64,000 bases of DNA from Iningainema tapete BLCC-T55. Its GTDB lineage: Bacteria; Cyanobacteriota; Cyanobacteriia; Cyanobacteriales; Nostocaceae. The notes under the pieces are model-generated. The model was not told the origin of the DNA. It did not search any database and saw nothing but the letters and a program-made list of their open reading frames with translations. Shown piece by piece: positions 27,615 to 45,896 of the stretch (positions are counted from its first letter, which is position 1; each line of letters opens with the position of its first letter). Position numbers and translations under genes: made by a program. The stretch is from positions 124,001 to 188,000 of the forward strand of contig NZ_JACXAE010000118.1 in the NCBI RefSeq assembly GCF_014698965.1, in the 5' to 3' direction.

Positions 27615-28514
27615 ATGATTATGCTGCAACAGCGTCCTTCCATTCCGCAAACAGATCCGCCCCTTGCTGCCAAATTGACGCTGCCGACCATGTATGATTT
27701 ACCTAGTGAAGATCCCTTGGAGCCTGGTTTGCCCGACGAATTCCACGATTTACAACCCCAACTACTTAGCCGGACATTACGGTTAATAGACTACACAAAT
27801 GACCGAGTATTTACAGGAACAGATCTCAATCTGTACTATGATGTAAGGCATCCTTTATGGCACAAGCGTCCAGATTGGTTTTTAGTACTGGATGTGCCAC
27901 GCTTGTATGAAGAAACTGATTTGCGCTCTAGCTATGTTGTTTGGCAAGAAGGAGTAAATCCCTTTGTTGTTATAGAATTGCTTTCACCTGGTACTGAGAA
28001 AGAAGACTTGGGTGAGAATGCTGAATTGGAAGAAGTGGTAACAACTTCTGAATTGGAGAGTATAGTGATTGAATCTGAGAACATTAATGGACAAGCTGTA
28101 AAAGAAACTCCTCCCAAAAAGTGGGATGTATATGAACGCATTTTACGAGTACCATATTATATAGTATTCAGTCGCTACACAAATCGCCTACGTGGTTTCA
28201 AACTAGAAGGAGGACACTACCAAGAGCAAACCATCAATCCTGACAATCCACGCTTTTGGATTCCTGAGTTGAAGTTGGGATTGGGTGTGTGGGAAGGAGA
28301 GTTTGAAGGTATCACTCGTAAATGGTTGCGCTGGTATGATTCGGAGGGTAACTGGATGCCAACGGATACAGAATTGGCTTTTGAGGAGGCACAGCAAGAA
28401 CGGCAACTGAGAGAACAAGAACGGCAAAAGCGACTTAAGCTGACACAAAAGTTGCGTTTTCTGACTCCAGAGCAGTTAGAAGCTTTGGGTATTGACCCTC
28501 AGGATTTAGAATAA
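27615..28514 (+). CDS. Uma2 family protein, long form with coiled-coil tail
   Basis: A product of 299 residues. After a Pro-rich start, RPDWFLVLDVP, VVWQEGVNPFVVIELLSPGT and YYIVFSRYTN follow the Uma2 pattern (aspartate, glutamate and central strands). An acidic insertion of about 45 residues (LEEVVTTSELESIVIESENI) lies before KKWDVYERIL. The C-terminus is a charged coiled coil (EEAQQERQLREQERQKRLKL) ending LEALGIDPQDLE, a tail shared with the Uma2 protein at 55304. A nuclease role is predicted from the fold only. Confidence 0.82.
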   Translation: MIMLQQRPSIPQTDPPLAAKLTLPTMYDLPSEDPLEPGLPDEFHDLQPQLLSRTLRLIDYTNDRVFTGTDLNLYYDVRHPLWHKRPDWFLVLDVPRLYEETDLRSSYVVWQEGVNPFVVIELLSPGTEKEDLGENAELEEVVTTSELESIVIESENINGQAVKETPPKKWDVYERILRVPYYIVFSRYTNRLRGFKLEGGHYQEQTINPDNPRFWIPELKLGLGVWEGEFEGITRKWLRWYDSEGNWMPTDTELAFEEAQQERQLREQERQKRLKLTQKLRFLTPEQLEALGIDPQDLE

Positions 28515-28559
28515 CTCAGATCTTGCACCTTCACCCGAATACGCCTTGACTTATGTAAG

Positions 28560-28653
28560 GGCTAATAGCTCAAGTCCGTTAAAACGGACTGAATATATAT
28601 CCAGTAAGCTGTCTTCTTACTTAAGCTATTAGCCTAGAAATTTATTTCTAGGC
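28560..28653. repeat. Nested stem-loop repeat element
   Basis: The outer arms GGCTAATAGCT (28560-28570) and AGCTATTAGCC (28624-28634) are perfect complements. Inside lies AGTCCGTT/AACGGACT (28573-28590). A second hairpin, GCCTAGAAA/TTTCTAGGC (28632-28653), abuts it. This clover-like layout resembles REP or MITE-type elements. Its right end overlaps the DUF4058 relic. Confidence 0.75.
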
Positions 28654-28846
28654 AGTCAGGAATTCCGATCAAAAGAGCATCTTCTCCACTCATCTGATAA
28701 ACCCGCTTTTCTACCCCAACTCGGTATTTTGGTAGCAATTGGGAGTTCAACGACTCAGCAATTATTCCTATCAGCAAGTGATGGACTTCAAACCAGAATT
28801 TAGGATTTTCTAAATAGGGGTTCATCCCTGGAAACGGATATGGGAT
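28634..28846 (-). pseudogene. DUF4058 family, 5' fragment
   Basis: The minus strand reads PYPFPGMNPYLENPKFWFEV, HHLLIGIIAESLNSQLLPKY, RVGVEKRVYQMSGEDALLI, the start of DUF4058 proteins (normally around 250 residues). The codon where the family Met is expected (28844-28846) is ATC, and the frame ends after about 70 residues inside the hairpin GCCTAGAAA/TTTCTAGGC. Both ends are therefore damaged. An ORF from the internal ATG at 28825 exists but is unlikely to give a working protein. Confidence 0.7.
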
Positions 28847-29046
28847 TCCGATTTGCGCTTTGAGGTTTGTCGTGAGGATGTTTCTATCATACCCTTAAAC
28901 TGCATAAATTGATAGTAATAAACATATTCAATAATAAAGATGGAAGCAAAGAAAGCGAATCCATTCTATTCAGCTAGTAATGACTTTTTTGTGCCAAAAC
29001 TAAGCTGAAATTGTCATGCAACTCAATTTCTTATGGGTAAACAAAT

Positions 29047-29439
29047 ATGTATTACATTCATCCTTTTCAACTAGAACTTCATCAACTAGAAACTCTCGTT
29101 GTGCATGTGCAACAATCCAATCAAGAGGTGCAAAAATCCAACCTTGAGATTAATACCAAAGCCATTGCTAAAAAAGGTGATACTGTTACAACTCAAGCTG
29201 TGGGCGAAGAAGGTGGTTCTAAAGTCACAACTCGGGCTGTGGGCGAGGAAGGTGGTTCTAAAGTTACTACTTACGCTGTGGGTGAAGAAGGTGGTTACAA
29301 AACCACAACTCAAGCTGTGGGTGAGGAAGGTGGTACGAAAGTTACTACTTACGCTGTGGGTGAAGAAGGTGGTTCTAAAGTCACTACCTACGCTTTTTGT
29401 GAAGAGGGAGGTAGTAGTTGTAACAATTTCAGTTTTTAA
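29047..29439 (+). CDS. Multi-core graspetide precursor peptide with six TTxxxxEE repeats
   Basis: A product of 130 residues. Residues 1-45 form a leader-like helical part (MYYIHPFQLELHQLETLVVH, VQQSNQEVQKSNLEINTKAI). From residue 48 six units follow with an exact 13-residue period: TTQAVGEEGG, TTRAVGEEGG, TTYAVGEEGG, TTQAVGEEGG, TTYAVGEEGG, TTYAFCEEGG. The Thr pairs are at 48, 61, 74, 87, 100 and 113, the Glu pairs at 54, 67, 80, 93, 106 and 119. TTxxxxEE is the core of plesiocin-type graspetides, in which an ATP-grasp enzyme joins Thr hydroxyls to Glu carboxylates. The leader has no PFFARFL motif, so it is not a microviridin. The ATP-grasp gene follows. The coding potential of the opposite strand is only a shadow. 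Confidence 0.87.
   Translation: MYYIHPFQLELHQLETLVVHVQQSNQEVQKSNLEINTKAIAKKGDTVTTQAVGEEGGSKVTTRAVGEEGGSKVTTYAVGEEGGYKTTTQAVGEEGGTKVTTYAVGEEGGSKVTTYAFCEEGGSSCNNFSF
29188..29406 (+). repeat. 39-bp tandem repeats encoding the graspetide cores
   Basis: Five full 39-bp units and one shorter end, each encoding one TTxxxxEEGG core and its spacer (SKV, YKT or TKV). The units differ at a few bases, mostly at the third core residue (Q, R or Y) and at wobble positions. This suggests expansion by slippage or recombination. Confidence 0.9.
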
Positions 29440-29443
29440 TGCT

Positions 29444-29473
29444 TGTAGAGACGTTGCCTGCAACGTCTCTACA
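29444..29473. repeat. Palindromic repeat of the GTAGAGACG family
   Basis: TGTAGAGACGTTGC and GCAACGTCTCTACA form a perfect stem around CT. It lies four bases after the graspetide precursor stop, where it could stabilise or end the precursor transcript and lower expression of the ligase gene (inference). Confidence 0.9.
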
Positions 29474-29587
29474 GGGATTTGGGAAAATTACAAATTTGTG
29501 GAAGGACGTAATTCATTCCCAAATTTAGCTAATTGTCTTTGTTGGCGTTTCTAAATTAAGATATGAATTTAAAAAATCACGATTTTA

Positions 29588-29616
29588 CGGAGACGCCCCA
29601 CCGGGGCGTCTCTACA
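29588..29616. repeat. Palindromic repeat, GGAGACGCCCC variant
   Basis: GGAGACGCCCC and GGGGCGTCTC flank ACC in a strong GC-rich stem. It is the second repeat of this family in the 245-base gap between the precursor and the ATP-grasp gene. Confidence 0.85.
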
Positions 29617-29684
29617 GGTGTGAATTTTATTATCGTCTATATTTAGAACACAATTAACCGTCACTCATTTATTATGTTTTAAAA

Positions 29685-30587
29685 ATGAATATTTTAATTC
29701 TAGGTGATTCTTCAGATGCTCATGCTGCACATGTGAAAGATTATCTTACACAAGCAGGAGCGACGGTAGATTATTTAGATACGAGTATGTTTCCTACTCA
29801 GTTGCGCATGTCTTGGCAACCAAATACTCAAGTAGGATCTATAAAGTTGTCTTCACGTCAATTGGAATTCCAAGATATTCACAGTGTTTTTTGGCGTAGT
29901 TTTGCTGGTGTTGGCGTTCCTCATTTAGAAGATTCACATCAGCTTCAGATTGCGTTCAATGATTCTATGAGTACGGTGCGAACTTTGATGAAAGCTTGCC
30001 CTTGTCGTTGGGTTAATTCTTGGGAGGCGTATCAGTTTCATAAAGAGAAACCACTGCAACTTCATGCTTGTCAGCGTATAGGAGTTAAAATTCCCGAAAC
30101 TCTAATTACTAACGATCCAGAACAAGTGATTAGGTTTGCTAAATCTCATGAGCGAGTGATTTTTAAACCAGTTTATGGAGGTGCTCATACCCAAATTTTG
30201 ACTGAATCTCATTTAGATCCTCATCGGCTAAATTTAGCTCTCTCGTTGTCTCCTGTTACTATTCAAGAGTATATTGGTGGTACAAATATTCGCAGTTATG
30301 TCATTGGCAATTCAGTTTATTCTGCGGAAATTTGCAGTAACTTTTTAGATTTTAGGGAAGATTTAAATGCTAAGTTGATTCCTCATGAGTTGCCAAAACA
30401 GATTCAACAGCAGTGTCGAGATATTACCCAAGCTTTATACTTAGAGTGGACTGCGATTGATTGGCGTCTAACTCCTTGGGGTGAATATGTCTTCTTAGAA
30501 GCAAATCCTAGCCCAATGTTTCTCCACTTTGAGCAACAAACTGGTTTTCCCATCACTGAGAAGTTAGTTCAGTTGTTGATGAGTTAA
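29685..30587 (+). CDS. ATP-grasp graspetide macrocyclase (MvdD/MdnC-like ligase)
   Basis: A product of 300 residues, close to the usual size of graspetide ligases. The ATP-grasp landmarks are in order: RVIFKPVYGGAHTQIL with Lys161, the hinge IQEYIGGTNIRSYVIG at 193-208 with Arg203, ID(W)R at 258-261, and YVFLEANPSPMFLHF with metal ligands Glu272 and Asn274. The first 120 residues form the pre-ATP-grasp domain (MNILILGDSSDAHAAHVKDY, SVFWRSFAGV). The family makes omega-ester or omega-amide links in a leader-bound peptide; the TTxxxxEE peptide 245 bases upstream on the same strand is the obvious substrate. No transporter, protease or acetyltransferase gene is next to it. It converges on the histidine kinase gene. 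Confidence 0.85.
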   Translation: MNILILGDSSDAHAAHVKDYLTQAGATVDYLDTSMFPTQLRMSWQPNTQVGSIKLSSRQLEFQDIHSVFWRSFAGVGVPHLEDSHQLQIAFNDSMSTVRTLMKACPCRWVNSWEAYQFHKEKPLQLHACQRIGVKIPETLITNDPEQVIRFAKSHERVIFKPVYGGAHTQILTESHLDPHRLNLALSLSPVTIQEYIGGTNIRSYVIGNSVYSAEICSNFLDFREDLNAKLIPHELPKQIQQQCRDITQALYLEWTAIDWRLTPWGEYVFLEANPSPMFLHFEQQTGFPITEKLVQLLMS

Positions 30588-30647
30588 TTTTCTAGAAATG
30601 CATTCATAGACAAAATTCATCTGTATCGCCATTAACCTGAAATGGTA

Positions 30648-32069
30648 TTAGACTTGAAACAGGTACTGCTGCTGGATAGGAATTTGAATGACAAATTCCG
30701 TCCCCATTCCTGGTATTGAAAAACAGGCTAGCTTACCGCCATGATTTTCGGTGATAATTTTGTAACTGATAGCCATTCCCATTCCTGTTCCCTTACCGAC
30801 AGGTTTTGTTGTGAAGAATGGATTAAAAATATGTGGTTGAATTGCTTCGGGAATTCCAGTCCCATTGTCGGCAATCACAACTTTTACCCATTGTGAGTCA
30901 ACCACAGATGTCTGAATCGTGATTTCGCTGGGGCGATGGTTAATTTCCCGATCGGTTCGTTTAGCGTTGAACTCTTCAATCGCATCGATCGCATTTACCA
31001 GAATATTCATGAAAACTTGGTTAAGTTGTCCACAATAACACTCTACCAATGGCAAGTTACCATAGTCTCGGATTACCTTGATTTCTGAACATTCCGATGT
31101 CGCTTTCAGTCGATGTTGCAGAATTAGTAAGGTGCTATCAATACCTTCATGGATATCAACTGCTTTGATTTGAGCTTCGTTCAGGCGTGAAAAATTACGG
31201 AGTGACGTCACAATCTGGGCAATTCGCTCAGTACCTATTTCCATTGAACGCAGAAGTTGGGGAAAATCTGCTTGCAAAAATTCCCAGTCTATTTTCTTCG
31301 CTGCTGTCTCAATTTCCAATACTGGGTTAGGGTAATGCTTTTGATACAGTTGCACGAAATCCAATAGATTCAATGCATATTCTTTCACGTAAATCAAGTT
31401 ACCATAAACAAAGTTAACCGGGTTATTGATTTCATGGGCAATCCCTGCTACTAATTGTCCTAGACTAGACATTTTTTCCGCTTGAATCAGTTGGGCTTGG
31501 GTCTGTTGGAGTTCAATGAGTAACTTTTGCAGTCGTGCAGTTTCCATCTGTAAACAGGTATTAGCTTCACGCAACTCTTGAGTACGTTTAACTACCTGTT
31601 GTTCCAAAGCTTCATTAACTTTTTGGAGTCGGCGCTCTGCTTCCCTTTGGTAAGTGACGTCTCGTAACACTAAAACTGAACTAACGGAGTCATCTGTCTC
31701 TATCAAGTTGTTGGGAATTTCTACAAACGACCAAGCAATTTCTAGAATTAGGTATTGGCTTGATTGATGATATTCATAACATTGTTTACCACTTTTTCTG
31801 GTTTCCAGAGCGATCGCCACAGGATGAGCATCACCTGAAACGACTTGTCCATCCAGTAATAAAGGCAATTTCTCTGATAATGATTTTCCTAAAAGTAACA
31901 AACGAGTCTGCCCAAAAAAACGTTCGAGGGCAGCATTACACCACTTGATTCTACCTTGACGATCTGTCCAAACAATACATTCCTCAACCGTGCTGAGCGC
32001 AATTTCCATTTTACTCAGGGTTGAGCTAAGTTGTTTGAGTTGGGAATTTGAGTCAGATATCTGGGACAT
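30648..32069 (-). CDS. PAS-containing sensor histidine kinase
   Basis: A product of 473 residues with no membrane segment. A PAS domain lies at about 25-140 (VEECIVWTDRQGRIKWCNAA), then a coiled coil (VNEALEQQVVKRTQELREAN). The H box is LVAGIAHEINNPVNFVYGNL; the N box is NQVFMNILVNAIDAIEE; the G boxes are IADNGTGIP and GKGTGMGMAIS. It should autophosphorylate on the H-box His. No response regulator gene is adjacent, so the partner is elsewhere. It is the second gene of an operon with the small PAS protein 14 bases upstream, whose promoter is shared in sequence with the csm operon. Confidence 0.9.
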   Translation of the reverse strand: MSQISDSNSQLKQLSSTLSKMEIALSTVEECIVWTDRQGRIKWCNAALERFFGQTRLLLLGKSLSEKLPLLLDGQVVSGDAHPVAIALETRKSGKQCYEYHQSSQYLILEIAWSFVEIPNNLIETDDSVSSVLVLRDVTYQREAERRLQKVNEALEQQVVKRTQELREANTCLQMETARLQKLLIELQQTQAQLIQAEKMSSLGQLVAGIAHEINNPVNFVYGNLIYVKEYALNLLDFVQLYQKHYPNPVLEIETAAKKIDWEFLQADFPQLLRSMEIGTERIAQIVTSLRNFSRLNEAQIKAVDIHEGIDSTLLILQHRLKATSECSEIKVIRDYGNLPLVECYCGQLNQVFMNILVNAIDAIEEFNAKRTDREINHRPSEITIQTSVVDSQWVKVVIADNGTGIPEAIQPHIFNPFFTTKPVGKGTGMGMAISYKIITENHGGKLACFSIPGMGTEFVIQIPIQQQYLFQV

Positions 32070-34493: not shown

Positions 34494-36288
34494 ATTTTGC
34501 GTTGATTTGATTTACCAAAGATTGCACAACTCTATCTGCATCAAGTAATGCAGTTGAGTTAACAAAAGGTCGTGGCAAAATAAAGGTGTAAAACTTGGGT
34601 CCCTCGGTAGGTGTTCCTAATACCCAAAAGTTTTTGTAAACATCACCTTCTCTGCTAATTAAATTAAAATCTTGTGAAATATCTAAACCATTGGGATGGA
34701 ATCGATTATTAAAAAATGGACGAGCCAAACCATCTGCTATAAGCTGTTGCAGTAAGAGATTTGAGCTTTCTTGAGGGAGAGGCATGGCAATGCGTGAACG
34801 AATAAAAACCTCAGCTTCAACAGTCTCAAACTGACCAGTAATTACAAATAGATTACTTTTTTTGTCAAACCTCCATTGAGGGTTTGGTCCCAGATCCATT
34901 TTTAAGATACCGGCTTTTTTTAATGCCAGCATTTCCTCAATTCTGACTTTTGGAGGACCTACAGCCAAGCGATTCATCACAGGAATAAATGAGGATAAAA
35001 GCCAGCGATGGCTGCTTTCTGTTAGTCCAGCAAAATCAATAGCATATCTGAGATTGTCCCTTAAGTCTCTCAAAACATCACAGGCAGCTTTTAGAGGATT
35101 TGAGACATTACCTTCACTAGCATTCCTGACATCTTCATCTAAATAATTATCGAGCCATTCATTAAAACAATTTTTTGATTCTAGGGCATAATCCGGTATT
35201 GGATTTACCAATTTTTCCCAATTAAATTGATGCCAGGGTGGAATAAAATTAAAAATTAAAGATTTACGTTGATCCTCTTTTGCAGTTAAATACGCCTGAG
35301 CAAATTTACTAGCTGCAATGTATCCATGATGTTTTTTAATATAAGTTTTACTATAAATAAACTCCAGATCACTTAATAATAACGGCAGAAGATGCTCAGT
35401 AAAATCTATTTTTTGATACTTTTCTTTCAGTTCACTAATTGCTTTACGTGTGAGAAAATTAGCTTTATATTGTTCCCGGACTTCTTTTTCATTGCTGGCT
35501 CTGGCAGATAAGGGTAATCCCGAACGAGAAAAGGCGATTATTTTTGGTTCTTTTTGTGATGCTTGATAGCAAATAACCCCTTCTTGATTGCGGATGAATT
35601 TTCCTCCCCGACCTACTGTTAGCATAGATAAAATATCGCATGTTGATAATCCCAAACCTTCCAGTGCTACCGTTTCGTGGGATTGAATACCTGATGTCGA
35701 TAGGTGGAGAGGATAAGCAGAGAATAGACGACGGTTTTCTTCATCCTTTTTCAAGATTTCATGTTCATGTCCTGTCGTTAAAAAAACATAGTTTTGGTGG
35801 TATATTTCACCATTTTCTGTCTTAATACACCATCTGGTAAGGGAAGAATAAGCAGAAATAACACGCTGTGAAACCGTTGTAATATTTAGTGTTTCAGATG
35901 CAAGTTCGCATAAATAATGAAAGCCCCATTGTAGGTATTCACCTAATAGCTTTCTGGGATAATAGCCATTGGGATCATGGGATGAGGAAGTATGGTCACA
36001 AAGCCATTCATAAAAAGAAGGACCCTCCAAAATTAAGCCTGAACCTTGAACTGTATGGTCTAAAAAAATAGTTATTTGACTGGCGATAGTATTAACCAGC
36101 AAATGCTCTGGTTGGTCAGTAAAATGACAACCCGCGCCCAAAGGATTGGGATCAAAAATATTGATATTCACGTTAACATCGGGTGGAAATTGTTTTGCTC
36201 TGGCAAATACAACAATCCGCTCCAGAATGCTTAAACCCCTGGGTCCCATACCAATAATTGCAATGTTAACTGCACTCTGTTTTATCAT
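34444..36288 (-). CDS. FAD/NAD(P)-binding oxidoreductase (NAD_binding_9 type)
   Basis: A product of 614 residues. NIAIIGMGPRGLSILERIVV at about 8-27 is a Rossmann dinucleotide-binding loop of the GxGxxG type with GPRG, as in the FAD-NAD(P)-binding family PF13454. NIFDPNPLGAGCHFTDQPEH, VNTIASQITIFLD and YVFLTTGHE are further family blocks, and a second loop, VALEGLGLSTCDILSMLTVG, lies near residue 205. Such proteins occur in oxidoreductases of peptide and amino-acid metabolism. It is first in an operon with the MFS and GST genes. The substrate is unknown. Confidence 0.82.
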   Translation of the reverse strand: MIKQSAVNIAIIGMGPRGLSILERIVVFARAKQFPPDVNVNINIFDPNPLGAGCHFTDQPEHLLVNTIASQITIFLDHTVQGSGLILEGPSFYEWLCDHTSSSHDPNGYYPRKLLGEYLQWGFHYLCELASETLNITTVSQRVISAYSSLTRWCIKTENGEIYHQNYVFLTTGHEHEILKKDEENRRLFSAYPLHLSTSGIQSHETVALEGLGLSTCDILSMLTVGRGGKFIRNQEGVICYQASQKEPKIIAFSRSGLPLSARASNEKEVREQYKANFLTRKAISELKEKYQKIDFTEHLLPLLLSDLEFIYSKTYIKKHHGYIAASKFAQAYLTAKEDQRKSLIFNFIPPWHQFNWEKLVNPIPDYALESKNCFNEWLDNYLDEDVRNASEGNVSNPLKAACDVLRDLRDNLRYAIDFAGLTESSHRWLLSSFIPVMNRLAVGPPKVRIEEMLALKKAGILKMDLGPNPQWRFDKKSNLFVITGQFETVEAEVFIRSRIAMPLPQESSNLLLQQLIADGLARPFFNNRFHPNGLDISQDFNLISREGDVYKNFWVLGTPTEGPKFYTFILPRPFVNSTALLDADRVVQSLVNQINAKYAPIQNQRRSKVYNTI

Positions 36289-36540
36289 TGACTAAACTCA
36301 AATACAAAATTTGTTTGCTTATTTATAAATTTTTACCTAATTGTATTAGGCAGAAAATATTGCCAAAATCTTTGCCAATCGGCACAAAATCCCACTAAAT
36401 GGGAAGAGCCGAACAATATCTTCCTTATCCTCAAATGTGAAAGTTTTTTAGAACTCCCTGAATCTTATATTTACCAAAAATCAGGGGTTAGGCTAGGGCA
36501 AGTATACTTATTTTTTTTGAATAAATAAAAATATTAATTA
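36289..36540. other. Divergent intergenic region upstream of the csm operon
   Basis: Between the minus-strand FAD gene and the shared promoter element. No ORF is supported. It is AT-rich, with a weak CCCTGA/TCAGGG pair at 36456-36486. It must contain the promoter of the FAD operon. Confidence 0.5.
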
Positions 36541-36605
36541 AGTATTTTCCACATGTACTACATATAATAGTTATGGCTATAAAGTTATATATAGCTTTTT
36601 TTAGT
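36541..36605 (+). promoter_or_regulatory. Upstream element shared with the PAS/kinase operon (copy 2)
   Basis: Matches the minus strand of 32498-32562 at about 60 of 65 positions. TATAAT occurs at 36563-36568 and the dyad GGCTATA/TATAGCT just downstream. The element ends 43 bases before the cas10 start. Traces of similarity (ACAAGTTT near the start codon) continue beyond it in both copies. Confidence 0.7.
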
Positions 36606-36648
36606 AAATATGTAGTGAAAATAGAGTTATCAAACAAGTTTCTGTTTC

Positions 36649-38895
36649 ATGAGCAACCCAACACCCGCATCTGATGCCGCCTTGCGAGTTTCTCAACAAG
36701 CTGTTACCCTACTCACAAAGTGGGCTGCTCCAGATTTAGCCAATAAATGCCCTCCTTTAAATGAGGAGGCTTTGTGGTTGAATGATTTCCATCCAAAACC
36801 ATTAAAGTTACTTTTTTCATCTGTATGGTTATATAGCCATACAGATATGATTGGTCATTACTGGAAACCTAAGTCTATTCTAGACAGAGAACCAATCATT
36901 CCCTACCCCCAAGCACAAAAACCAGCACCGGAAGATTTCAACTCACTCAAACAAGAAATCCGCTCAGCTATAGAATCTTTGCACAAAGACGATTGGCAAA
37001 ATCTTTCTCTATTAACTCTGATTTTAGAAAAATTCGGCTCTTTTATAAGCGTTGACGAAGCTGATGTGGCACTAGTAGATATAGTAAAGACTACCGCTGC
37101 GATCGCAGCTGCTACCAATCATACTCCAACTACCGAACTAAGTCTAATCGCCGGCGATTTATCTGGTATTCAAAAATTTATTTACACCATATCTTCTGAT
37201 GGAGCGCTCAAATCTCTACGGGCACGCAGCTTCTACCTAGAGTTAGTCACAGAAGAAGTAGTGCAACAACTGCTGACAGCGTTACAGCTTCCTCGCACCA
37301 ACGTAATTTATGCAGGGGGTGGCAACTTATATATATTAGCGGGAGCAGAGAATACAAAAGAAATTGTTGAGCAAGTGCGTCAGCAATTTAATGAATGGCT
37401 TCTAGATGAATTTCAAGGCAAAGTCTTTCTCGCCCTTGATTGTTTACCATTTCCCCTTGCAGATGCTACAGAAGCATTTGCTCAACATTGGTCAAATGTT
37501 ACCCAGAAGCTAGCTAACCAAAAATCTCGTAAGTTTGCCGAACAGATTACCAGTACTCAGTTTATCAAACAACGGCACAGTTATGAACCCTGCCGCGTCT
37601 GTCACAGAGATGATGAGGAATTAGAAAAGTTGAATTCAAAAGAACCAGATTCTGTGCTTGCTTGTAAAACTTGTCGCAGTATGTTTGAATTGGGAGGGCA
37701 ACTGTTGCAAGTTGAAGCGATTGTGCGATCGCCACGACAATTTATACCAGGAGCATTGCATACACTGCCGTTTAAACTACCTACTACCAACATATACTAC
37801 CATCTATTTCGCAACTGGAAACAAATCGATACCGAAGCTGACACAGTTTTACTTGTCAACGATTGGACATTAGAACATTACAAATTTCGGCATTTTCCTC
37901 AAGCTGTTCCCTTATTATTAGGAAACTACGGTAAACCGACAAAAGAACCAGAAGAAAATAGCTTTATGCGGGCAAACGAAATGGCGCAACAAGCCCAAGG
38001 AATTAAGAGAGTAGGCTATTTGCGGATGGATGTAGATAGACTGGGACAAATTTTTGCCAAAGGATTGAGAGAAAAACAAACATTACCAAGATTAGCTGGG
38101 CTATCTCGGCAAATGAGTTATTTTTTCAAGGTTTACTTGAAAAGCGTAGCAGAAAACCCTGGGGAAAATTTACCACAAAATCTGGTAGGCGATTGCCCAA
38201 GGGGCAGTGCCGGAGGCAATCGCACTTCAACTCAGGAATCGCGAAATTTACTATTTATCTATGCTGGTGGTGATGACTTATTCGTGAGTGGCGCATGGAA
38301 TGAAGTCGTTGAATTTGCCTTTGATGTTTACCAGTGCTTTCGCGCCTACACTGGGGATAATCCAGACATTACCTTATCGGGAGGAATTAGCATAGCAGAT
38401 GCCAAATATCCCCTTTACCAAGCTGCTCAGGAATCAGGAGAAGCGGAAGACGCTGCGAAAGGAAACGGTAGAGACAGTTTAAGCTTGTTTGGACAAGTTT
38501 TCAAGTGGGATGAATGGTTAGGTACTGCCACTACTAGTTGTGAGCATCATCACCTCAAAGAAAAAATGCCCAAGTTATTGGGTGTATTACCATTTGTCAA
38601 GAGATTAGAAAAGCAGAATATAGGCATTAATTATGCTCGTAGCTTTGTCCGAAATCTACTGATTACGGCACAAATTCAAGAACAAGCATTAAAGAAATTT
38701 GCCGATAAAAAAACTCCAGAAGCTTTGGATACTCGTTACTATTTGCATTTACCAAAGATAGCTTATACTCTAGCAAGATTGCCAAACAAGGTACGGAATG
38801 ATAGTGATTTTCGCACTTCTTTGAAAAGTCCATATAATGCACCGTACTTTCGAGCGATCGCTACCTGGATAGAAATACTCAACCGTGAAGTATGA
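36649..38895 (+). CDS. cas10: Type III-A CRISPR effector Cas10/Csm1
   Basis: A product of 748 residues. SLIAGDLSGIQKFIYTISS at about 165-183 opens the first palm-like domain. CRVC and CKTC at about 322-347 form the zinc ribbon. YAGGDDLFVSG at 538-548 holds the GGDD active site (540-543) that in the family makes cyclic oligoadenylates when target RNA binds. GDNPDITLSGGISIADAKYP and AKGNGRDSLSLFG are typical Csm1 blocks. The N-terminal 130 residues show no HD motif, so DNase activity is not expected. Residues 514-525 are encoded by a repeat inserted in frame just before GGDD. It starts the csm operon and overlaps csm2 as ATGA. Confidence 0.92.
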   Translation: MSNPTPASDAALRVSQQAVTLLTKWAAPDLANKCPPLNEEALWLNDFHPKPLKLLFSSVWLYSHTDMIGHYWKPKSILDREPIIPYPQAQKPAPEDFNSLKQEIRSAIESLHKDDWQNLSLLTLILEKFGSFISVDEADVALVDIVKTTAAIAAATNHTPTTELSLIAGDLSGIQKFIYTISSDGALKSLRARSFYLELVTEEVVQQLLTALQLPRTNVIYAGGGNLYILAGAENTKEIVEQVRQQFNEWLLDEFQGKVFLALDCLPFPLADATEAFAQHWSNVTQKLANQKSRKFAEQITSTQFIKQRHSYEPCRVCHRDDEELEKLNSKEPDSVLACKTCRSMFELGGQLLQVEAIVRSPRQFIPGALHTLPFKLPTTNIYYHLFRNWKQIDTEADTVLLVNDWTLEHYKFRHFPQAVPLLLGNYGKPTKEPEENSFMRANEMAQQAQGIKRVGYLRMDVDRLGQIFAKGLREKQTLPRLAGLSRQMSYFFKVYLKSVAENPGENLPQNLVGDCPRGSAGGNRTSTQESRNLLFIYAGGDDLFVSGAWNEVVEFAFDVYQCFRAYTGDNPDITLSGGISIADAKYPLYQAAQESGEAEDAAKGNGRDSLSLFGQVFKWDEWLGTATTSCEHHHLKEKMPKLLGVLPFVKRLEKQNIGINYARSFVRNLLITAQIQEQALKKFADKKTPEALDTRYYLHLPKIAYTLARLPNKVRNDSDFRTSLKSPYNAPYFRAIATWIEILNREV
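38188..38222. repeat. Cyanobacterial repeat inserted in frame in cas10
   Basis: GGCGATTGCCCAAGGGG ... GCCGGAGGCAATCGC is an imperfect palindrome of the type often seen between Nostoc genes. It encodes VGDCPRGSAGGNR in a loop about fifteen residues before the GGDD motif. Confidence 0.7.
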
Positions 38896-39365
38896 CAGAA
38901 CTAAACAAACCAAAGCCACCTATACAAATTATAAATCAAAAGCAATCAATTCCACCACCCAGTCAGCAAAAAGATATTGTTGATGAAATTGTGAAAACTA
39001 TTACGGAACTAAAGGATGGCTTAAAAGCTTATCCTATTAGGGTTCTAGTTAAACATGCCGAAGAATTTGGTCCTTATCTCAAACGACAAAGATTAGAAAC
39101 CAATCAAATTCGTAAATTCCTAGATGCGGTGAATAGGCTAAAAGCAGAATTAGCCGAGAAAGGAGATTTCGCGAAAATTGAAACAGAAGTCGTTTTACTC
39201 AAACCCAAATTAGCCTACGCTGCTGCGAGACAAAAAGCAGCTAAACCCTTGGGAGAAGTTATATCAACTGCGATTGACAAAGTATATAGTGTAGAAGACT
39301 TTGAGCGGCTAGTCCAATTTATTGAATCAATTATTGCCTATCACAAAGCCGAAGGCGGAAAATAA
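38892..39365 (+). CDS. csm2: Csm2, type III-A small subunit
   Basis: A product of 157 residues, mostly helical and basic. IRVLVKHAEEFGPYLKRQRL, ETNQIRKFLDAVNRLKAE and LKPKLAYAAARQK follow the Csm2 pattern; the protein forms the inner helical filament of the effector along the crRNA. A disordered, Pro-rich start (ELNKPKPPIQIINQKQSIPP) is longer than usual. Its presence identifies the operon as III-A rather than III-B. It is coupled to cas10 by a four-base overlap. Confidence 0.88.
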   Translation: MTELNKPKPPIQIINQKQSIPPPSQQKDIVDEIVKTITELKDGLKAYPIRVLVKHAEEFGPYLKRQRLETNQIRKFLDAVNRLKAELAEKGDFAKIETEVVLLKPKLAYAAARQKAAKPLGEVISTAIDKVYSVEDFERLVQFIESIIAYHKAEGGK

Positions 39366-39372
39366 CACCGTT

Positions 39373-39402
39373 CGTAGAGACGCTCCGGCGGAGCGTCTCT
39401 AC
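39373..39402. repeat. Palindromic repeat of the GTAGAGACG family between csm2 and csm3
   Basis: CGTAGAGACGCTCC and GGAGCGTCTCTAC form a long stem, seven bases after the csm2 stop. A stretch of ATCCAAAATTC-type text follows. It could attenuate or stabilise the csm transcript. Confidence 0.9.
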
Positions 39403-39432
39403 AATCCAAAATTCAAAATCCAAAATCCTTAT

Positions 39433-40434
39433 ATGCCAGCATCAACAGCAAATAAACCCTTACTTGGAAAAATTCGCCTCACCAGTCACATAAAAGTAGA
39501 AACAGGATTGCATATTGGCGGTGGAGGTGAGAATCTAGATATTGGTGGACTAGATAAACCTGTAATTCGCGATCCACTGACACAATATCCTTACCTACCT
39601 GGTTCATCAATAAAAGGCAAACTGCGCTCAATTTTGGAAAGATTGTTAAACAAACCCCTGAATCGAGCCGGAGGAAGTAACACTTTTCGTTATGAAAGTG
39701 ATGATTTAGCAGATGGTTTCACCGAAATTGACGCATTGATTATTCCCTATCAAGGAGCGCGTACCTGCCCAATTAGCCGTGTTTTCGGTTCTACAGGAGG
39801 TTCCCAATTTTGGATGGCGATTGATACTGCAAGAACAGAAGAACTATTTGACGAAAATAGTCCAACGCGCATAATCCAATCACAAAATTGTACCAAAATT
39901 ACTCGCGGACGTAACGCTCCAGCACGTCTAATCATCCGGGATTGTCACTTGCTTCCAGATTCAGCGGAACAATTGAAGAGAATTGACACCGGATTATATA
40001 TGACTGAGTGGAAATTCGAGAATGGGATTGACAGAGTAACAGCAGCAGCAAACCCCAGACAATTAGAACGTGTACCAGCAGGAGCAAAATTCCAGTTTGA
40101 ATTAGTCTATACTGTTGAAGATGCTGAACAAGCGATTGAAGACTTGCAGAACATTGCGATCGCACTTGCTATTTTAGAAGATGACGCACTTGGTGGGCAT
40201 GGCTCCAGAGGTTACGGCAAAGTCAAATTTCTCAACTTCGAGTTTTCCTACCGTAACTTAGAGCAATATCGCCAAATTACTAACACTCCTGTTGGCGCAT
40301 CCGGTTTACAACCCATTGCACCCGTTGCTGACATACAAGCACTGTTAGATAACTTTGGGCGTTTGCGTGATGATATCAAACGACGGTTACAACCACCGAA
40401 TGGATATTTAGAACCACAGATGCACACAGATTAA
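39433..40434 (+). CDS. csm3: Csm3, Cas7-family backbone RNase
   Basis: From MPASTANKPLLGKIRLTSHI at 39433 the product has 333 residues. The frame is open back to 39322 but that part translates the upstream palindrome. GLHIGGGGENLDIGGLDKPV with Asp41 matches the catalytic loop of Csm3, which cuts target RNA every six bases. LPGSSIKGKLRSILERL, then DDALGGHGSRGYGKVKF with the glycine-rich loop, are RAMP hallmarks. The last residues, EPQMHTD, come from a repeat (40413-40475), so the C-terminus is altered. Confidence 0.9.
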   Translation: MPASTANKPLLGKIRLTSHIKVETGLHIGGGGENLDIGGLDKPVIRDPLTQYPYLPGSSIKGKLRSILERLLNKPLNRAGGSNTFRYESDDLADGFTEIDALIIPYQGARTCPISRVFGSTGGSQFWMAIDTARTEELFDENSPTRIIQSQNCTKITRGRNAPARLIIRDCHLLPDSAEQLKRIDTGLYMTEWKFENGIDRVTAAANPRQLERVPAGAKFQFELVYTVEDAEQAIEDLQNIAIALAILEDDALGGHGSRGYGKVKFLNFEFSYRNLEQYRQITNTPVGASGLQPIAPVADIQALLDNFGRLRDDIKRRLQPPNGYLEPQMHTD

Positions 40435-40475
40435 CACAGATAATTTATCTGTGTGCATCTGTGTTAATCTGTGGT
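40413..40475. repeat. ACCACAGAT-type inverted repeat at the csm3 3' end
   Basis: ACCACAGATGCACACAGAT and ATCTGTGTTAATCTGTGGT form the ends of a near-palindrome with rearranged middle units. The same CACAGAT/ATCTGTG wording is common in cyanobacterial intergenic repeats. It overlaps the csm3 stop codon. Confidence 0.8.
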
Positions 40476-40518
40476 TTCATTTTTCTAAATTTGAATTAAT
40501 ACAAGAGATTTTTTGAAC

Positions 40519-41595
40519 ATGAGTAGCTGGAAATTAGTTAAACTTAATTTCGGACACTCTCCTGCTCACTTTGGTGAATTAGGTATTGGTATAGAAGAAA
40601 CAAGCGAACGAGTACGCTCGGATAGTTTATTTAGCGCTTGGGTGAGTATTTATGCACGGTTACTTGGGCAAGAGGCGGTTGAATCATTGTTACAGCGTTT
40701 CCACCAATCTCCACCAGTGCGGATAAGTTCTACTTTTATATATAGAGAAGAAGCAGAACATACTATATATTATCTCCCTCGTCCCCTCAAATTTCCCATC
40801 AACTACCCCAAAGATGACTTAGAGTTTTTTAAAACTTACAAAAAGCTCAACTTCCTACCACTGGAAGTCTGGCAGCGATGGTATCAAACAGAGGGATTTG
40901 CCGAGAGCGATGCAAGAGAGTTGATTGCCGAAACTACAGGTAAATCTCAGGGACTTTTGCGCAAAGCTGGAGCTTTTGACTATAAAAATACCTTCAAAAT
41001 CGGTCAACTACCAAAAATTGCCGTCGATCGCATTACCAGAGCAACCAATCTCTATCATACAGGTTTTGTCCAATTCGAGACAGAAAAAAACCGTTCTGGT
41101 TTATACTTCTTACTCTATTTTCCCAATAGTGAGCAACAGTTAGAACACAACCTTCGTGCTGCTTTAAACTTGCTCGGTGAGGAAGGATTGGGCGGAGAAC
41201 GTTCTAGCGGTGCAGGGCGATTTGAAGTAGAGTGGTTAGAATTACCGCTCATTTGGCAAAAAGTTGTCAATTTTTCTGAGCAACCAGTTTACCACTGTTT
41301 AATTAGCTTATTTTGGGATGATGATGCGTCTAATTTAAAGCAGTTAATTACGAATGAAAGTAGTTATGACATTCAAGAAAGGGGGGGTTGGATTGCTTCT
41401 AGTGAAAGACAGCTACGACGCCAGTTTGTGCGGATGTTTGCTGAAGGTTCTGTTTTTCCCACAAATCCACAGGGTAAGCTTGCTGATGTGACGCCTAAGG
41501 GGTTTACAATACATCGTGTTTATCGTAGTGGTATTGGTTTGAGTTTGCCGATAAAGGTAAATGAACCGCCAAGACGCCAAGAGCGCCAAGGTTAA
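40519..41595 (+). CDS. csm4: Csm4, Cas5-family crRNA 5'-handle binder
   Basis: From MSSWKLVKLNFGHSPAHFGE at 40519 the product has 358 residues (an in-frame TTG two codons earlier is unlikely). The opening strand, SERVRSDSLFSAWVSIYARL and EGLGGERSSGAGRFEVEWLE are typical Csm4 blocks, the last being its Gly-rich loop. It caps the effector with Cas10 and holds the crRNA tag. The end, EPPRRQERQG, is encoded by CCGCCAAGACGCCAAGAGCG, a widespread cyanobacterial repeat, so the C-terminus has been extended or replaced. Confidence 0.88.
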   Translation: MSSWKLVKLNFGHSPAHFGELGIGIEETSERVRSDSLFSAWVSIYARLLGQEAVESLLQRFHQSPPVRISSTFIYREEAEHTIYYLPRPLKFPINYPKDDLEFFKTYKKLNFLPLEVWQRWYQTEGFAESDARELIAETTGKSQGLLRKAGAFDYKNTFKIGQLPKIAVDRITRATNLYHTGFVQFETEKNRSGLYFLLYFPNSEQQLEHNLRAALNLLGEEGLGGERSSGAGRFEVEWLELPLIWQKVVNFSEQPVYHCLISLFWDDDASNLKQLITNESSYDIQERGGWIASSERQLRRQFVRMFAEGSVFPTNPQGKLADVTPKGFTIHRVYRSGIGLSLPIKVNEPPRRQERQG

Positions 41596-41603
41596 AATTT
41601 TAT

Positions 41604-42833
41604 ATGATTATTTCTAATTTAGCTCTTAAGAAACCTGATGTTTATGAATCAAGAAGGATACGGTTAGAAAGTCCTATTTTGCATATAGGTTCGGCGGTAT
41701 CTAAGTTGAATCCGTTTGAGTATGTGCAGGCTAATCAAAAGGTTTACTTTCCTAATGAAGAAGCATTGGCGAAGGGTTTGCAATGCCAGGGAGGACGGTT
41801 TTTAGATGATTATATTTTAGCTATTGAGTCGCGTCAAGATATTAGTAAGCTTTTACGACAAGCGTTTGGTTATGAGTGGTGGGATGCTATTGATGCTGAT
41901 GGAGTGTCTATTTTTCCTCAAAATGCTATTAGTCAAAAGTTGACGGAGGCTTATATTTCAGATTTGCGTCCGATGATTCGTAATGGGATGGGACAATTGT
42001 TTGTACCTGGTTCTTCGATTAAGGGCGCAATTAGAACTGCGATCGCCTATCATTTACTTAAAGCACAACGCTTGTCTGTTAGTGAAATTGAAAAAACTTT
42101 AAGGCAAAGGTTAGGACAAGTTAATCACTATCAGCAAAAGTTTTTGGATGATGATTTTATGGATAGTTTGTTTTCGGATTTTTCTCTAGTATATCAAGAG
42201 AGAAAGTTTTTTGGTAAAGGTCAGAATACAGATTTTTTAAGAGTGCTTAAAGTTAGCGATTCTGAACCGCTTTTAGAAGAGCAAATTTCAACTAATATAC
42301 CTGTTGTTGCTGAGGTGCTAGTTACGAGTCGATTTCCTGACTACTTGGCTAAGTATAGAGCGTCTATTTATGTTGAAATGGTACGCAATGTCCAAACAGA
42401 ATTTACTCTCTCTTTAGATACAGAGATGCTTTCTTGGTTTAAGCATAAACAGGGAATTAAGTTACCTTTCTCTACTTTAGATGAACTTGTACAAATATGT
42501 CAGGAATTTACTCAAGAACAGTGGAAGTATGAGCAGAGTTACTGGCAACAAGTTAAAAACAATTCCACATCAGGGAGAAATTTAGACTTTAATTATATTC
42601 GTGAATTTTATGCAGCGGAAAAATGTCCTTATACCCTAAGATTGGGATGGGGTAGTGGAATGATGGGAACAACAGTGGATTTACTATTAGATGATGAATT
42701 GAGAAAAGATATCCGCGATACTTGTGGTTTAAAAGCGTCTGGTTTTGAAGCACCAAAATCAAGGCGTACTGTGATGAATTTCAATGGTGAAATCAGATTT
42801 GTACCAGGATGGGTTAAGTTTCAGTCTTTATAA
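41604..42833 (+). CDS. csm5: Csm5, Cas7-family terminal backbone subunit
   Basis: A product of 409 residues. RRIRLESPILHIGSAVSKLN, FVPGSSIKGAIRTAIAYHLL and the end LRLGWGSGMMGTTVDLLL fit Csm5, which occupies the 3' end of the crRNA in III-A effectors and recruits host nucleases for trimming. The start lies eight bases after csm4 and the stop five bases before cas6. Confidence 0.87.
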   Translation: MIISNLALKKPDVYESRRIRLESPILHIGSAVSKLNPFEYVQANQKVYFPNEEALAKGLQCQGGRFLDDYILAIESRQDISKLLRQAFGYEWWDAIDADGVSIFPQNAISQKLTEAYISDLRPMIRNGMGQLFVPGSSIKGAIRTAIAYHLLKAQRLSVSEIEKTLRQRLGQVNHYQQKFLDDDFMDSLFSDFSLVYQERKFFGKGQNTDFLRVLKVSDSEPLLEEQISTNIPVVAEVLVTSRFPDYLAKYRASIYVEMVRNVQTEFTLSLDTEMLSWFKHKQGIKLPFSTLDELVQICQEFTQEQWKYEQSYWQQVKNNSTSGRNLDFNYIREFYAAEKCPYTLRLGWGSGMMGTTVDLLLDDELRKDIRDTCGLKASGFEAPKSRRTVMNFNGEIRFVPGWVKFQSL

Positions 42834-42838
42834 ATTTT

Positions 42839-43645
42839 ATGCTAATTCGTTCTACTTGGACATTATATGTAACCGAACCAACAGTTTTACCTCGTTCCTA
42901 TAGATTGGAACTAGTAAAGCTACTACATCAACAATTAGGTTTAGAGATGGGAGGCGAGGCGATTCCCTCTACTTGTTTCTCCGGAATTCTTGGTTCATAT
43001 TCTACTTCTAAAGAGTTTTTCACTTTCCATCCCGAGCAGTTTTACAAGTTATCTTTGTGTGGCTTGCAAGAAGTTGCAGCAAAGGCAGTATTATCTCTTA
43101 ATCTTTGCCAATTGGAGTTTCTCGGATCTCAGTTTAACGTTATCAACCGTGAAGATGAAACTACTAGCTATGAAGAACTATATACAACTTTAGTGGCGAA
43201 TGAGCCAGAGCCAGTGCGGAGATTTGATTTGCAGTTTGTTACTCCTACAGCTTTTGCTCAGAATAACACGCACTTACCTTTACCTCTACCCTCCTTGATG
43301 TTTCGCAGTTGGTTAGAGCGTTGGAATCATTTTGCGCCTATATATTTAGGAGGTGATGAGTTAATCTCCTACCTAAGTGAGTCAATTATAATTAAACATC
43401 ACAAAATTCAAACGCGATCGCTTGTATTGCACAAGGGTTATATAAATGGATTTGTTGGCGATGTGTCACTACAAGTTCTTAGTCGTGCTGATGAGTTGGT
43501 GGTGAATGTCGCTAATTTGCTAGTTCAATATGCGCAATTTGCCGGTACTGGAATGAAAACTCGTTTAGGTATGGGAACAACACAAGTCAATTTAGCTTTT
43601 AGAACTTCTTCCCCTTCCGGAAATGGAAATATTCCTTTGACTTAA
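42839..43645 (+). CDS. cas6: Cas6 CRISPR RNA endonuclease
   Basis: A product of 268 residues. FDLQFVTPTAFAQNNTHLPL and PSLMFRSWLERWNHFAP form the middle block, and AQFAGTGMKTRLGMGTTQV is the Gly-rich loop near the C-terminus, as in Cas6 of type III systems. It cuts the repeat RNA to release crRNAs. HHKIQTRSLVLHKG at about 185-198 may supply the catalytic His (inference). It ends the effector operon; the relic array starts 83 bases downstream. Confidence 0.87.
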   Translation: MLIRSTWTLYVTEPTVLPRSYRLELVKLLHQQLGLEMGGEAIPSTCFSGILGSYSTSKEFFTFHPEQFYKLSLCGLQEVAAKAVLSLNLCQLEFLGSQFNVINREDETTSYEELYTTLVANEPEPVRRFDLQFVTPTAFAQNNTHLPLPLPSLMFRSWLERWNHFAPIYLGGDELISYLSESIIIKHHKIQTRSLVLHKGYINGFVGDVSLQVLSRADELVVNVANLLVQYAQFAGTGMKTRLGMGTTQVNLAFRTSSPSGNGNIPLT

Positions 43646-43671
43646 TCAAATATTTGTGCTAATCTTATTTT

Positions 43672-43701
43672 CTGATTTAAATTTATTCCTGCTTAAATCA
43701 G
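43672..43701 (+). terminator. Hairpin after the csm operon
   Basis: CTGATTTAA and TTAAATCAG form a perfect 9-bp stem with a 12-base loop, 26 bases after the cas6 stop. It is AT-rich and lacks a T-run, so it could be a weak terminator or part of the array leader. Confidence 0.4.
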
Positions 43702-43728
43702 AGGCAAATAGTGACAAGCGGCAAAACA

Positions 43729-43833
43729 GTTTTCATAACTTCCCCACTAGGGGATTGAAAATCCTCGTTTTGTCATTGCACTACTCCTCAGATTTTCCAG
43801 TTTTCATTTTCTTCCCCGTAAGGGGACATCAAC
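43729..43833. CRISPR. Degenerate CRISPR array with two repeats and one spacer
   Basis: Repeat 1 (43729-43761) begins GTTTTCATAACTTCCCC and ends AGGGGATTGAAAA. Repeat 2 (43800-43833) begins GTTTTCATTTTCTTCCCC and ends AAGGGGACATCAAC. Both share GTTTTCAT, CTTCCCC and AGGGGA, the small stem of cyanobacterial type III repeats, but differ at about a quarter of positions. They flank a 38-base spacer (43762-43799), a normal length. No third repeat follows, and no cas1/cas2 lies nearby. It reads as a remnant of the array once served by the csm operon. Confidence 0.65.
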
Positions 43834-43872
43834 TTAAAGCACAGAGATTATTATCTCGCGCTAACCATAATC

Positions 43873-44020
43873 GTAGAGACGCGAAATTTCGCGTCTCTAC
43901 ATTTCTTGGCGTTTCCCTGGGGTTTAAACCCCAGGCTAGGCGTCTTCTCTTCTCCTGTCGGAGACGCTTCGCGAACGAGACACTGCGCGTTCGCAAAGCG
44001 TCCCGAAGGGAAGGCGGTTT
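43873..44020. repeat. Cluster of palindromic repeats
   Basis: Four units lie in a row: GTAGAGACG...CGTCTCTAC (43873-43900), CCTGGGGTTTAAACCCCAGG (43917-43936), then GAGACGCTTCGCGAACGAG and TGCGCGTTCGCAAAGCGTC (43963-44001) with AAGGGAAGGCGG. No gene is encoded; ORFs across it are products of the repeats. Confidence 0.85.
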
Positions 44021-44068
44021 CATAAACTCAGCGGTGCGTTATACTACCAAGAGCGCACCCTACTTAAC

Positions 44069-45418: not shown

Positions 45419-45725
45419 ATTACTATACTTTTTACTAACTTTTTGTATTCCAAATTCTTGGCTCAAATTTGGCAGTGTACCTCGTACACAGAAGTTACGA
45501 GGACAAAAGTCTTTAAATCGTATAATCTTTTTCTAAAAAATATAAAGTACCTTCGTTGATGTCTCAAGAGCGGTACAGCTACCGTGATGGTGGTAGTACT
45601 GCAACGCCGTGAGACTTTCATACAAAGAGTGTTCCCAGGATTTATGCCCAGTGAACATCCATACTCAAAGTTTCTTGACAAAAAGTGAACTTTTTTCGGT
45701 TGAGATTGGCGAATTCAGACGAAAA

Positions 45726-45753
45726 GCGGCTTCCTTATCCCCCAGGAAGCCGC
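45726..45753 (-). terminator. Rho-independent terminator overlapping a small gene's end
   Basis: GCGGCTTCC and GGAAGCCGC form a perfect 9-bp stem with a ten-base loop. On the minus strand TTTT follows. It overlaps the last six codons and stop of the small membrane gene at 45735-45896. Confidence 0.8.
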
Positions 45754-45896
45754 CTTACTGTGCGAATGTTAGTTTTTTCTATGGTGTCGATTATCGCCAA
45801 ACCGATACCAGAAGTTGCTAGCAGCAGCAAGACTGACATCAGAAAGGCTTTGACTAGCATGTGGAGGGCTTCATCGAAAAAAATGTAGGTGGTCAT
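45735..45896 (-). CDS. Small single-pass membrane protein (53 aa)
   Basis: The minus strand encodes MTTYIFFDEALHMLVKAFLM then SVLLLLATSGIGLAIIDTIE and KTNIRTVRRLPGG. One strong hydrophobic segment covers residues 17-36, and the C-terminus is basic. A canonical terminator overlaps the end of the frame, which supports transcription in this direction. I do not recognise the family; opposite-strand ORFs here are shadows. Confidence 0.6.
   Translation of the reverse strand: MTTYIFFDEALHMLVKAFLMSVLLLLATSGIGLAIIDTIEKTNIRTVRRLPGG

Follow-up and report, generated by a model that had tools for sequence, protein, structure and literature searches.

A predicted plesiocin-type graspetide cassette with a six-core precursor in the cyanobacterium Iningainema tapete BLCC-T55

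A 64,000-nucleotide (nt) stretch of the Iningainema tapete BLCC-T55 genome (contig NZ_JACXAE010000118.1, positions 124,001 to 188,000 of the forward strand; hereafter the window) carries two adjacent genes with the make-up of a graspetide cassette, a repeat-containing precursor and an ATP-grasp ligase. A first-pass annotation of the DNA had placed here a precursor of 130 amino acids (aa) followed on the same strand by a 300-aa ligase, and both open reading frames (ORFs) lie exactly where it put them, with the precursor ORF ending 245 nt before the ligase. Features of the locus and of related loci are listed in Table 1.

Table 1. Coordinates of the cassette, its sequence elements and related precursors; positions without a prefix are those of the window.
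Feature	Position	Strand	Basis or remark
Graspetide precursor, 130 aa: 47-residue leader, six cores, short C-terminal tail	29047..29439	+	ORF, direct repeats, homologues
Leader motif HPFQLELHQLE, predicted ligase-recognition segment	29059..29091	+	conservation; role inferred from the treatment of leader motifs in PMC8939145
Core 1, TTQAVGEEGG	29188..29217	+	starts at residue 48
Core 2, TTRAVGEEGG	29227..29256	+	starts at residue 61
Core 3, TTYAVGEEGG	29266..29295	+	starts at residue 74
Core 4, TTQAVGEEGG	29305..29334	+	starts at residue 87
Core 5, TTYAVGEEGG	29344..29373	+	starts at residue 100
Core 6, diverged, TTYAFCEEGG	29383..29412	+	starts at residue 113
Graspetide synthetase, ATP-grasp ligase, 300 aa	29685..30587	+	profile matches, PDB search, tree, alignment, structure model
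Inverted repeat, 20-nt arms, 2-nt gap, at and past the precursor stop; GTAGAGACG/CGTCTCTAC dispersed family	29438..29479	.	repeat search
Second inverted repeat, 10-nt arms, 3-nt gap, precursor-ligase gap; GTAGAGACG/CGTCTCTAC family	29590..29612	.	repeat search
Second precursor of the window's genome	L127:9879-10175 (G000:C101)	-	different contig from the single ligase found
600-aa carrier with an HPFEL segment, Calx-beta stretches (three) and C-terminal cores (eight)	L084:5821-7623 (G311:C96)	-	ends 5 nt before ligase
Multi-core (TTxAxGEEGG) proteins, about 400-560 aa, beside sister ligases	L128:7892-9286, L129:7331-8521, L130:7682-9364, L201		f31 genomes
39-aa unannotated ORF, core TTMAMGEE, leader VHFIEELEE	L095:3813-3929, Halocatena salina plasmid	+	upstream of PsnB-like ATP-grasp gene

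As the annotation had claimed, all six cores fit TT-x4-EE-GG; each is ten residues long, and they recur at an exact 13-residue period, corresponding to direct DNA repeats spaced 39 nt. At the DNA level, a degenerate pattern for TxA(h)GEEGG matched five sites in the window, all inside the precursor gene, and none in 100 shuffles; core 6 is the core that it does not match. When the repeats were compared in register (15 repeat pairs), positions T1, T2, A4, E7, E8, G9 and G10 together showed 32 synonymous and no non-synonymous codon differences, while x3 showed no synonymous and 11 non-synonymous ones. At G6 there were six synonymous and five non-synonymous differences, the latter all caused by the core 6 Cys. 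In L053, L054, L090 and L091, which have seven-core repeats, T2, A4 and the EE-GG end behaved as in the window, and the first position was a mixture of Ser and Thr. Given synonymous-only change at the bonding positions and non-synonymous change at x3, the precursor is, on this codon evidence, a translated and selected peptide. A PDB search with it returned histone H1 noise alone.

The same core recurs throughout a family of related precursors, in which the core counts include near-identical genomes and all repeat pairs and are not independent events. The consensus of 107 cores from a set of 35 precursors is [T/S]T-x-A-[LVI]-G-E-E-G-G, with A4 in 104 and G6 in 105 of them, both at positions that the search pattern left free, and with G9 in 106 and G10 in all 107, in columns that the pattern partly fixed. 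Residue 3 of 137 cores at 41 loci was L in 52, Q in 21, Y in 20, K in 14, E in 11, M in 10, R in 7 and A in 2. Over 261 within-locus core pairs, this residue showed 183 non-synonymous and 12 synonymous differences; residue 5 showed 148 and 16, and was hydrophobic throughout, as the search pattern demanded. With some columns of both core sets fixed in this way, the evidence lies in the unfixed columns and the in-register comparison of the window repeats. Residue 3 is hypervariable, as is the P1 residue of an inhibitor.

The downstream gene encodes an enzyme whose best matches are graspetide synthetases. Among NCBIfam models, GRASP_SAV_5884 (167 bits), MvdD (127) and MvdC (102) scored best, though below their curated cut-offs, and the RimK-family model TIGR00768 gave 57.4 bits against a cut-off of 143.4; in Pfam, PF21068 (MvdD pre-ATP-grasp domain) and the broad RimK ATP-grasp domain exceeded their cut-offs. 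All six matches in a PDB sequence search were graspetide-type ligases (among them PruB, which we take to be of this type), with PsnB best (5.4e-26) and MdnC next (4.1e-22). BLASTP against PsnB residues 27-324 gave 117 bits (E 1e-35); at the alignment score of 70 used for similarity-network clusters in PMC13097080, no direct edge to PsnB is expected from this comparison of the two sequences alone. Lys161 and Arg203, the residues singled out in the annotation, are present and, like Glu272 and Asn274, invariant in 35 aligned sequences including the window ligase; all four align with identical residues of PsnB. An AlphaFold2 model of the ligase had a mean predicted local distance difference test (pLDDT) score of 93.8, and VIA-align placed RimK (Z 24.3) behind nine entries for graspetide ligases (Z 27.8-30.1). 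A grouping with RimK- or glutathione-type ligases, which the annotation had raised as a concern, appeared in neither the profile scores nor the structure ranking.

A careful tree of 50 proteins, with no RimK or glutathione synthase among its references, placed the window ligase in a clade of 21 members (support 100/99), the sister of which comprises seven enzymes from genomes of about 2 Mb in the same phylum (joint branch 98/89). On the same side of the tree as both clades lie PsnB, two enzymes from haloarchaea and a cyanobacterial trio (L140, L141 and L145), opposite MdnB, MdnC, CdnC, PruB and others (100/98), and a quick tree of 74 rows gave the same division (SH-aLRT, the Shimodaira-Hasegawa-like approximate likelihood ratio test, 98). 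PsnB sits on a long branch with haloarchaeal rows nearest, in a careful tree that has several long branches and few other group 2 enzymes. A single clade of 30 rows made up of the window clade, its sister, PsnB and Halocatena was rejected by the approximately unbiased (AU) test (p-AU 0.009) since both Halorussus L157 and the L140/L141/L145 group are nested next to PsnB; the grouping with PsnB is claimed for the wider side of 34 rows alone.

Ligase and core are closely linked across genomes. Ligase matches at E<=1e-20 occurred in 103 of the 217 genomes of the window's family, many of them full-length matches at about 26-33% identity that represent other ATP-grasp ligases; the window clade is the set at 56-80%, with Fischerella, Calothrix, Dulcicalothrix, Moorena, Acaryochloris and Alkalinema among its named members. 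A core-bearing frame adjoins the ligase at 38 of 43 clade loci (from 42 genomes by contig names and lengths, G020 contributing two). The locus grouping held 33 of these precursors, two of them downstream on the opposite strand (L076, L083) and three with diverged cores alone (L077, L078, L088); five were added from outside it, namely those of the window, L062, L041, L051 (cut by the contig end) and L036 (core with P for A). Such a frame is missing at five loci: L035 is degenerate, L048 has its precursor in trans, L049 has its leader in one frame and its cores in another, L050 has the leader alone, and L082 meets a contig end. Leader relatives beside such ligases, on which the first-pass proposal partly hung, are many, and precursor and ligase are the only widely conserved neighbours across the 43 loci, the next gene cluster occurring in seven. 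Among 386 genomes of the phylum, 15 had the ligase (E<=1e-60), 20 the exact core and 12 both, against 0.8 expected (Fisher p 2.8e-15, uncorrected for relatedness), and a reversed control core pattern was found in none. Each of the 19 exact-core genomes other than G392 yielded a related ligase (partial in G226); the lone match in G392, in a 51-residue frame with no start-to-stop ORF of 30 residues listed, was taken as chance.

A relaxed core was present in 27 of 34 chosen genomes. Where it was lacking, G063, G065 and G193 carried only truncated or stop-ridden clade ligases, G178 and G179 had intact ligases and diverged cores, as did G180, in which one ligase copy contains a stop, and G439 had a sister-clade ligase. 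G024, whose ligase is a 60-residue remnant, retains one core. Broken ligases were observed in G063, G065, G193 and G024, three of these four genomes being without cores, and broken precursors beside intact ligases at L049 (G070) and L050 (G069); the cassette seems to have been lost repeatedly. The stretches examined around the Burkholderia, Herpetosiphon, Croceicoccus, Phyllobacterium, Halorussus and L140-group ligases showed no clear TTxAxGEE-like ORF, a check that left out the Megaera locus L139.

The annotation correctly reported that the leader lacks PFFARFL, and passed over the conserved HPFQLEL motif that the leader nonetheless holds. Across 14 chosen precursor N-termini, H, P and F were invariant and the residue following F was Q, D, E, G, A or S, which does not fit the strict motif P-h-h-x(1,2)-h described for about half of graspetide precursors in PMC8939145. 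A leader-pattern search of the window's own genome gave no signal (28 sites vs 43 for the reversed control). The absence of a GG site ahead of the cores is common to the window, G170, G194 and Calothrix-type genomes; GG-leader relatives retain a separate GG before the first core. By eye, a gene resembling a C39-ABC exporter was found at five of the 43 related loci, in flanks of differing length.

Precursors also occur away from the ligase. The second precursor in the window's own genome, which has one such ligase, is 98 aa long, with a MRHPFDLEISNLE leader, a GG site and five cores, four of them exact and one a variant, and further precursors were found elsewhere in G032, G069, G070 and G071. 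By these comparisons, the window locus is no lone oddity and belongs to a family that spans the phylum and has some of its precursors in trans.

The core is found in larger carriers as well. The protein beside the L084 ligase counts 600 aa from its TTG start codon, and an in-frame ATG lying 14 codons further on would begin MVAHPFEL. It matches Calx-beta PF03160 at E 2.7e-34; one of its cores, TNRAVGEEGG, lacks the second Thr. This carrier is one case in one draft genome, G311, which is photosynthetic (PsaA/B present). Eight genomes of f31, a set of non-photosynthetic cyanobacterial relatives, carry the exact core, in precursors long or short. Like the window family, these have TTxA(h)GEEGG cores, here beside the sister ligase clade; they differ in often being long (up to 560 aa, with up to 13 motif matches, as in the 464 aa of L128), in their spaced cores and in that no HPFxL leader was seen, and their ligases are 33-38% identical to the window ligase. 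Photosystem I genes were found in none of nine genomes (seven of the eight exact-core f31 genomes plus G439 and G226); we infer that f31 is Vampirovibrionia. In the precursors of L039, L042, L044, L045, L065 and L078, the usual or a diverged core is mixed with a second repeat, TLTAVGPxESGESG or TLTAVKWGESGEGGGG, and given this second repeat type, one ligase may make two ring patterns. Outside the bacteria, a Halocatena salina plasmid locus (L095) has a 39-aa ORF ending in VTTMAMGEEVGDLSLPLI upstream of an ATP-grasp gene. It differs from the window in its single core and in its FIEEL leader, which is like that of PsnA2, and its ligase is nearer to PsnB (36.5%) than to the window ligase (27.9%). 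A PDB search with this ORF found no match; from its sequence, it is probably an archaeal plesiocin-type graspetide.

TTxxxxEE is the defining core motif of group 2 (plesiocin) graspetides, and the TTxA(h)GEE form of the core is shared with the plesiocin pair PsnA2/PsnB (PDB 7drm-7drp). The PsnB-bound peptide in these entries, PsnA2 14-38, reads LFIEDLGKVTGGKGGPYTTLAIGEE by PDB sequence search; its TTLAIGEE fits the family consensus up to the second Glu, and five of the six window cores fit the same TTxA(h)GEE. Tandem cores, a single ligase and the same side of the tree are likewise shared, and PsnB is the nearest solved structure by sequence. In contrast to plesiocin, the window has an HPFxL leader with a following LE in place of the LFIEDLGKVTGG of PsnA2 (LFIEDL type), which is absent from the window; it also lacks a GG site, comes from a cyanobacterial host, has a ligase in a clade of its own and has six cores, where plesiocin is called tetravalent in PMC12291112. 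The LFIEDLGKVTGG leader is typical of group 2; according to PMC13097080, the groups are defined by core consensus. The annotation's assignment to group 2 was supported by the PsnB substrate core and the tree and did not extend to the leader, which is not that of plesiocin. The predicted cassette is plesiocin-type in its core and enzyme and a variant in its leader, processing and substrate range.

Building on the observed homology, conservation and co-occurrence of precursor and ligase genes, we consider it likely that the two genes make a plesiocin-type graspetide by leader-guided cross-linking, with a product that is a probable multivalent inhibitor. The window has what marks the graspetide class, an adjacent precursor with ordered Thr/Glu pairs, nucleophile before acid. 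The ligase would bind the HPFQLEL leader and use ATP to phosphorylate two Glu per core, and two adjacent Thr would attack the activated Glu, so that every core would carry two nested Thr-Glu esters and the whole peptide at most twelve, in six bicyclic hairpins. The residue that follows TT, which is Q, R or Y in the window, would lie in the hairpin loop, probably as the P1 bait of a multivalent serine-protease inhibitor. Given that the residue 3 set consists of typical P1 residues, we infer a multivalent inhibitor with mixed specificity. For plesiocin, PMC13097080 describes the hairpin connectivity and serine-protease inhibition with a potency that rises with motif number.

Several observations weigh against this interpretation. 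Ligase and PsnB are only 30% identical. VIA Z fails to separate PsnB (29.6) from MdnC (29.9) and AMdnB (30.1), and was dropped as proof of kinship with PsnB over MdnC, the rows being tied; in Foldseek, MdnC chains take the top ranks, followed by PsnB. The closest ligase relative, G170 (80%), has no precursor beside its ligase; its precursor, on another contig, has 128 aa and six cores, of which the last ends in EEAG, and contains no GG ahead of them. The adjacent precursor looks broken in G070 and G069, and three ligase-bearing genomes of the phylum sample have no exact core: G516, where the ligase is broken, G537, where the core has P for A, and G439. The leader has neither the PsnA2 motif nor a GG site, and the 14 C39-peptidase hits in the genome include none on contig C118, which holds the window; with no GG site and no C39 hit on this contig, processing and export are unexplained. 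The window locus also offers no NHLM-type peptidase transporter, a feature that is frequent but not defining in group 2 according to PMC13097080. Both the P1 role and the protease target are guesses. To our knowledge, no product, water loss or activity has been reported for the window cassette.

Among other explanations, the one that we take most seriously, while judging it unlikely, is that the hairpins are structural ester cross-links that form a rigid repetitive element of an extracellular protein or matrix and stay on their carrier, and are not inhibitors. The missing GG site of the window precursor would suit it, as would the eightfold core at the C-terminus of the Calx-beta protein and the many cores in proteins of 396 to 560 residues from non-photosynthetic relatives. 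However, the freedom of residue 3 and its P1-like residues would be odd in a purely structural element, and plesiocin, with the identical core type, is described as a protease inhibitor in PMC13097080. Rather less probable still is cleavage at the GG after every EE, releasing six separate bicyclic peptides in place of one six-hairpin molecule. All six window cores end in GG at a constant 13-residue spacing, and G9 and G10 are nearly invariant in the family, if in columns partly fixed by the pattern. C39 peptidases, however, read an upstream helix in GG leaders, which EEGG lacks; the relatives with GG leaders have their separate site before the first core, and the window contig is without a C39 hit.

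Two further identities were rejected from the tree, structure and motifs. A group 1 (microviridin-type) system whose core is unusual is highly improbable: the host is cyanobacterial, the PF of the leader recalls PFFARFL, and MdnC and MvdD score well, but there is no PFFARFL, no Lys-containing core and a single ligase instead of a pair, and this ligase falls outside the MdnB/MdnC/CdnC clade. Microviridins (MdnA with MdnB/MdnC; the three-core AMdnA) are likewise cyanobacterial graspetides with ATP-grasp ligases, and AMdnA likewise has several cores (PMC5934393); they differ from the window in that their core is cage-like and contains Lys, their leader bears PFFARFL, they have two ligases, and these form a separate clade. 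We give even less credence to a RimK-, glutathione- or cyanophycin-type ligase beside an unrelated repeat gene. The shared ATP-grasp fold, the RimK domain over its Pfam cut-off, the RimK-family score and the RimK structures speak for it, whereas that score is far below its cut-off and below the graspetide models (themselves sub-cut-off), graspetide structures rank first, and ligase and core coincide far more often than expected.

If the cassette does make a plesiocin-type graspetide, it places the plesiocin hairpin, known chiefly from a single myxobacterium, in a phylum where microviridins are the usual graspetides, and with a different leader. The natural core sets, differing mainly at x3, would lend themselves readily to testing whether this residue determines protease specificity. 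Judging from the precursors in trans and the Calx-beta fusion, the natural substrates of graspetide ligases may include large proteins; ThfB has been made to act on such proteins in the laboratory (PMC12291112). More tentatively, one phylum-wide ligase lineage could cross-link the plesiocin hairpin into dispersed substrates, from 75-residue peptides to the 600-residue Calx-beta protein and proteins of about a dozen cores, and the hairpin might then be a portable, rapidly diversifying bait loop, multivalent on secreted or surface carriers, and not one small natural product; we regard this as possible but doubtful. Term searches of an open-licence library, which did not extend to the main group tables (reportedly those of Lee 2020 and Ramesh 2021), gave no description of a cyanobacterial TTxAxGEEGG family; the family could nonetheless be published, and may already have been catalogued. 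PMC13097080 mentions groups 34 and 35, whose precursors are long and repetitive and which might correspond to the window family.

Around the cassette, Rfam gave no match at 28500-31000, and promoter and terminator scans were at about shuffle level. The inverted repeat at the precursor stop is possibly an attenuator. Elsewhere, the window carries a Type III-A-like CRISPR module at 36649-43645 (+) with Cas10/Csm1, Csm2, RAMP proteins and Cas6; no CRISPR repeat array was seen at 34500-36700 or 43600-46400. Palindromic repeats on GTAGAGACG/CGTCTCTAC occur far above chance, at window positions 813, 29445, 29603, 39374, 46150, 50242 and 55274, and two of them fall between precursor and ligase.

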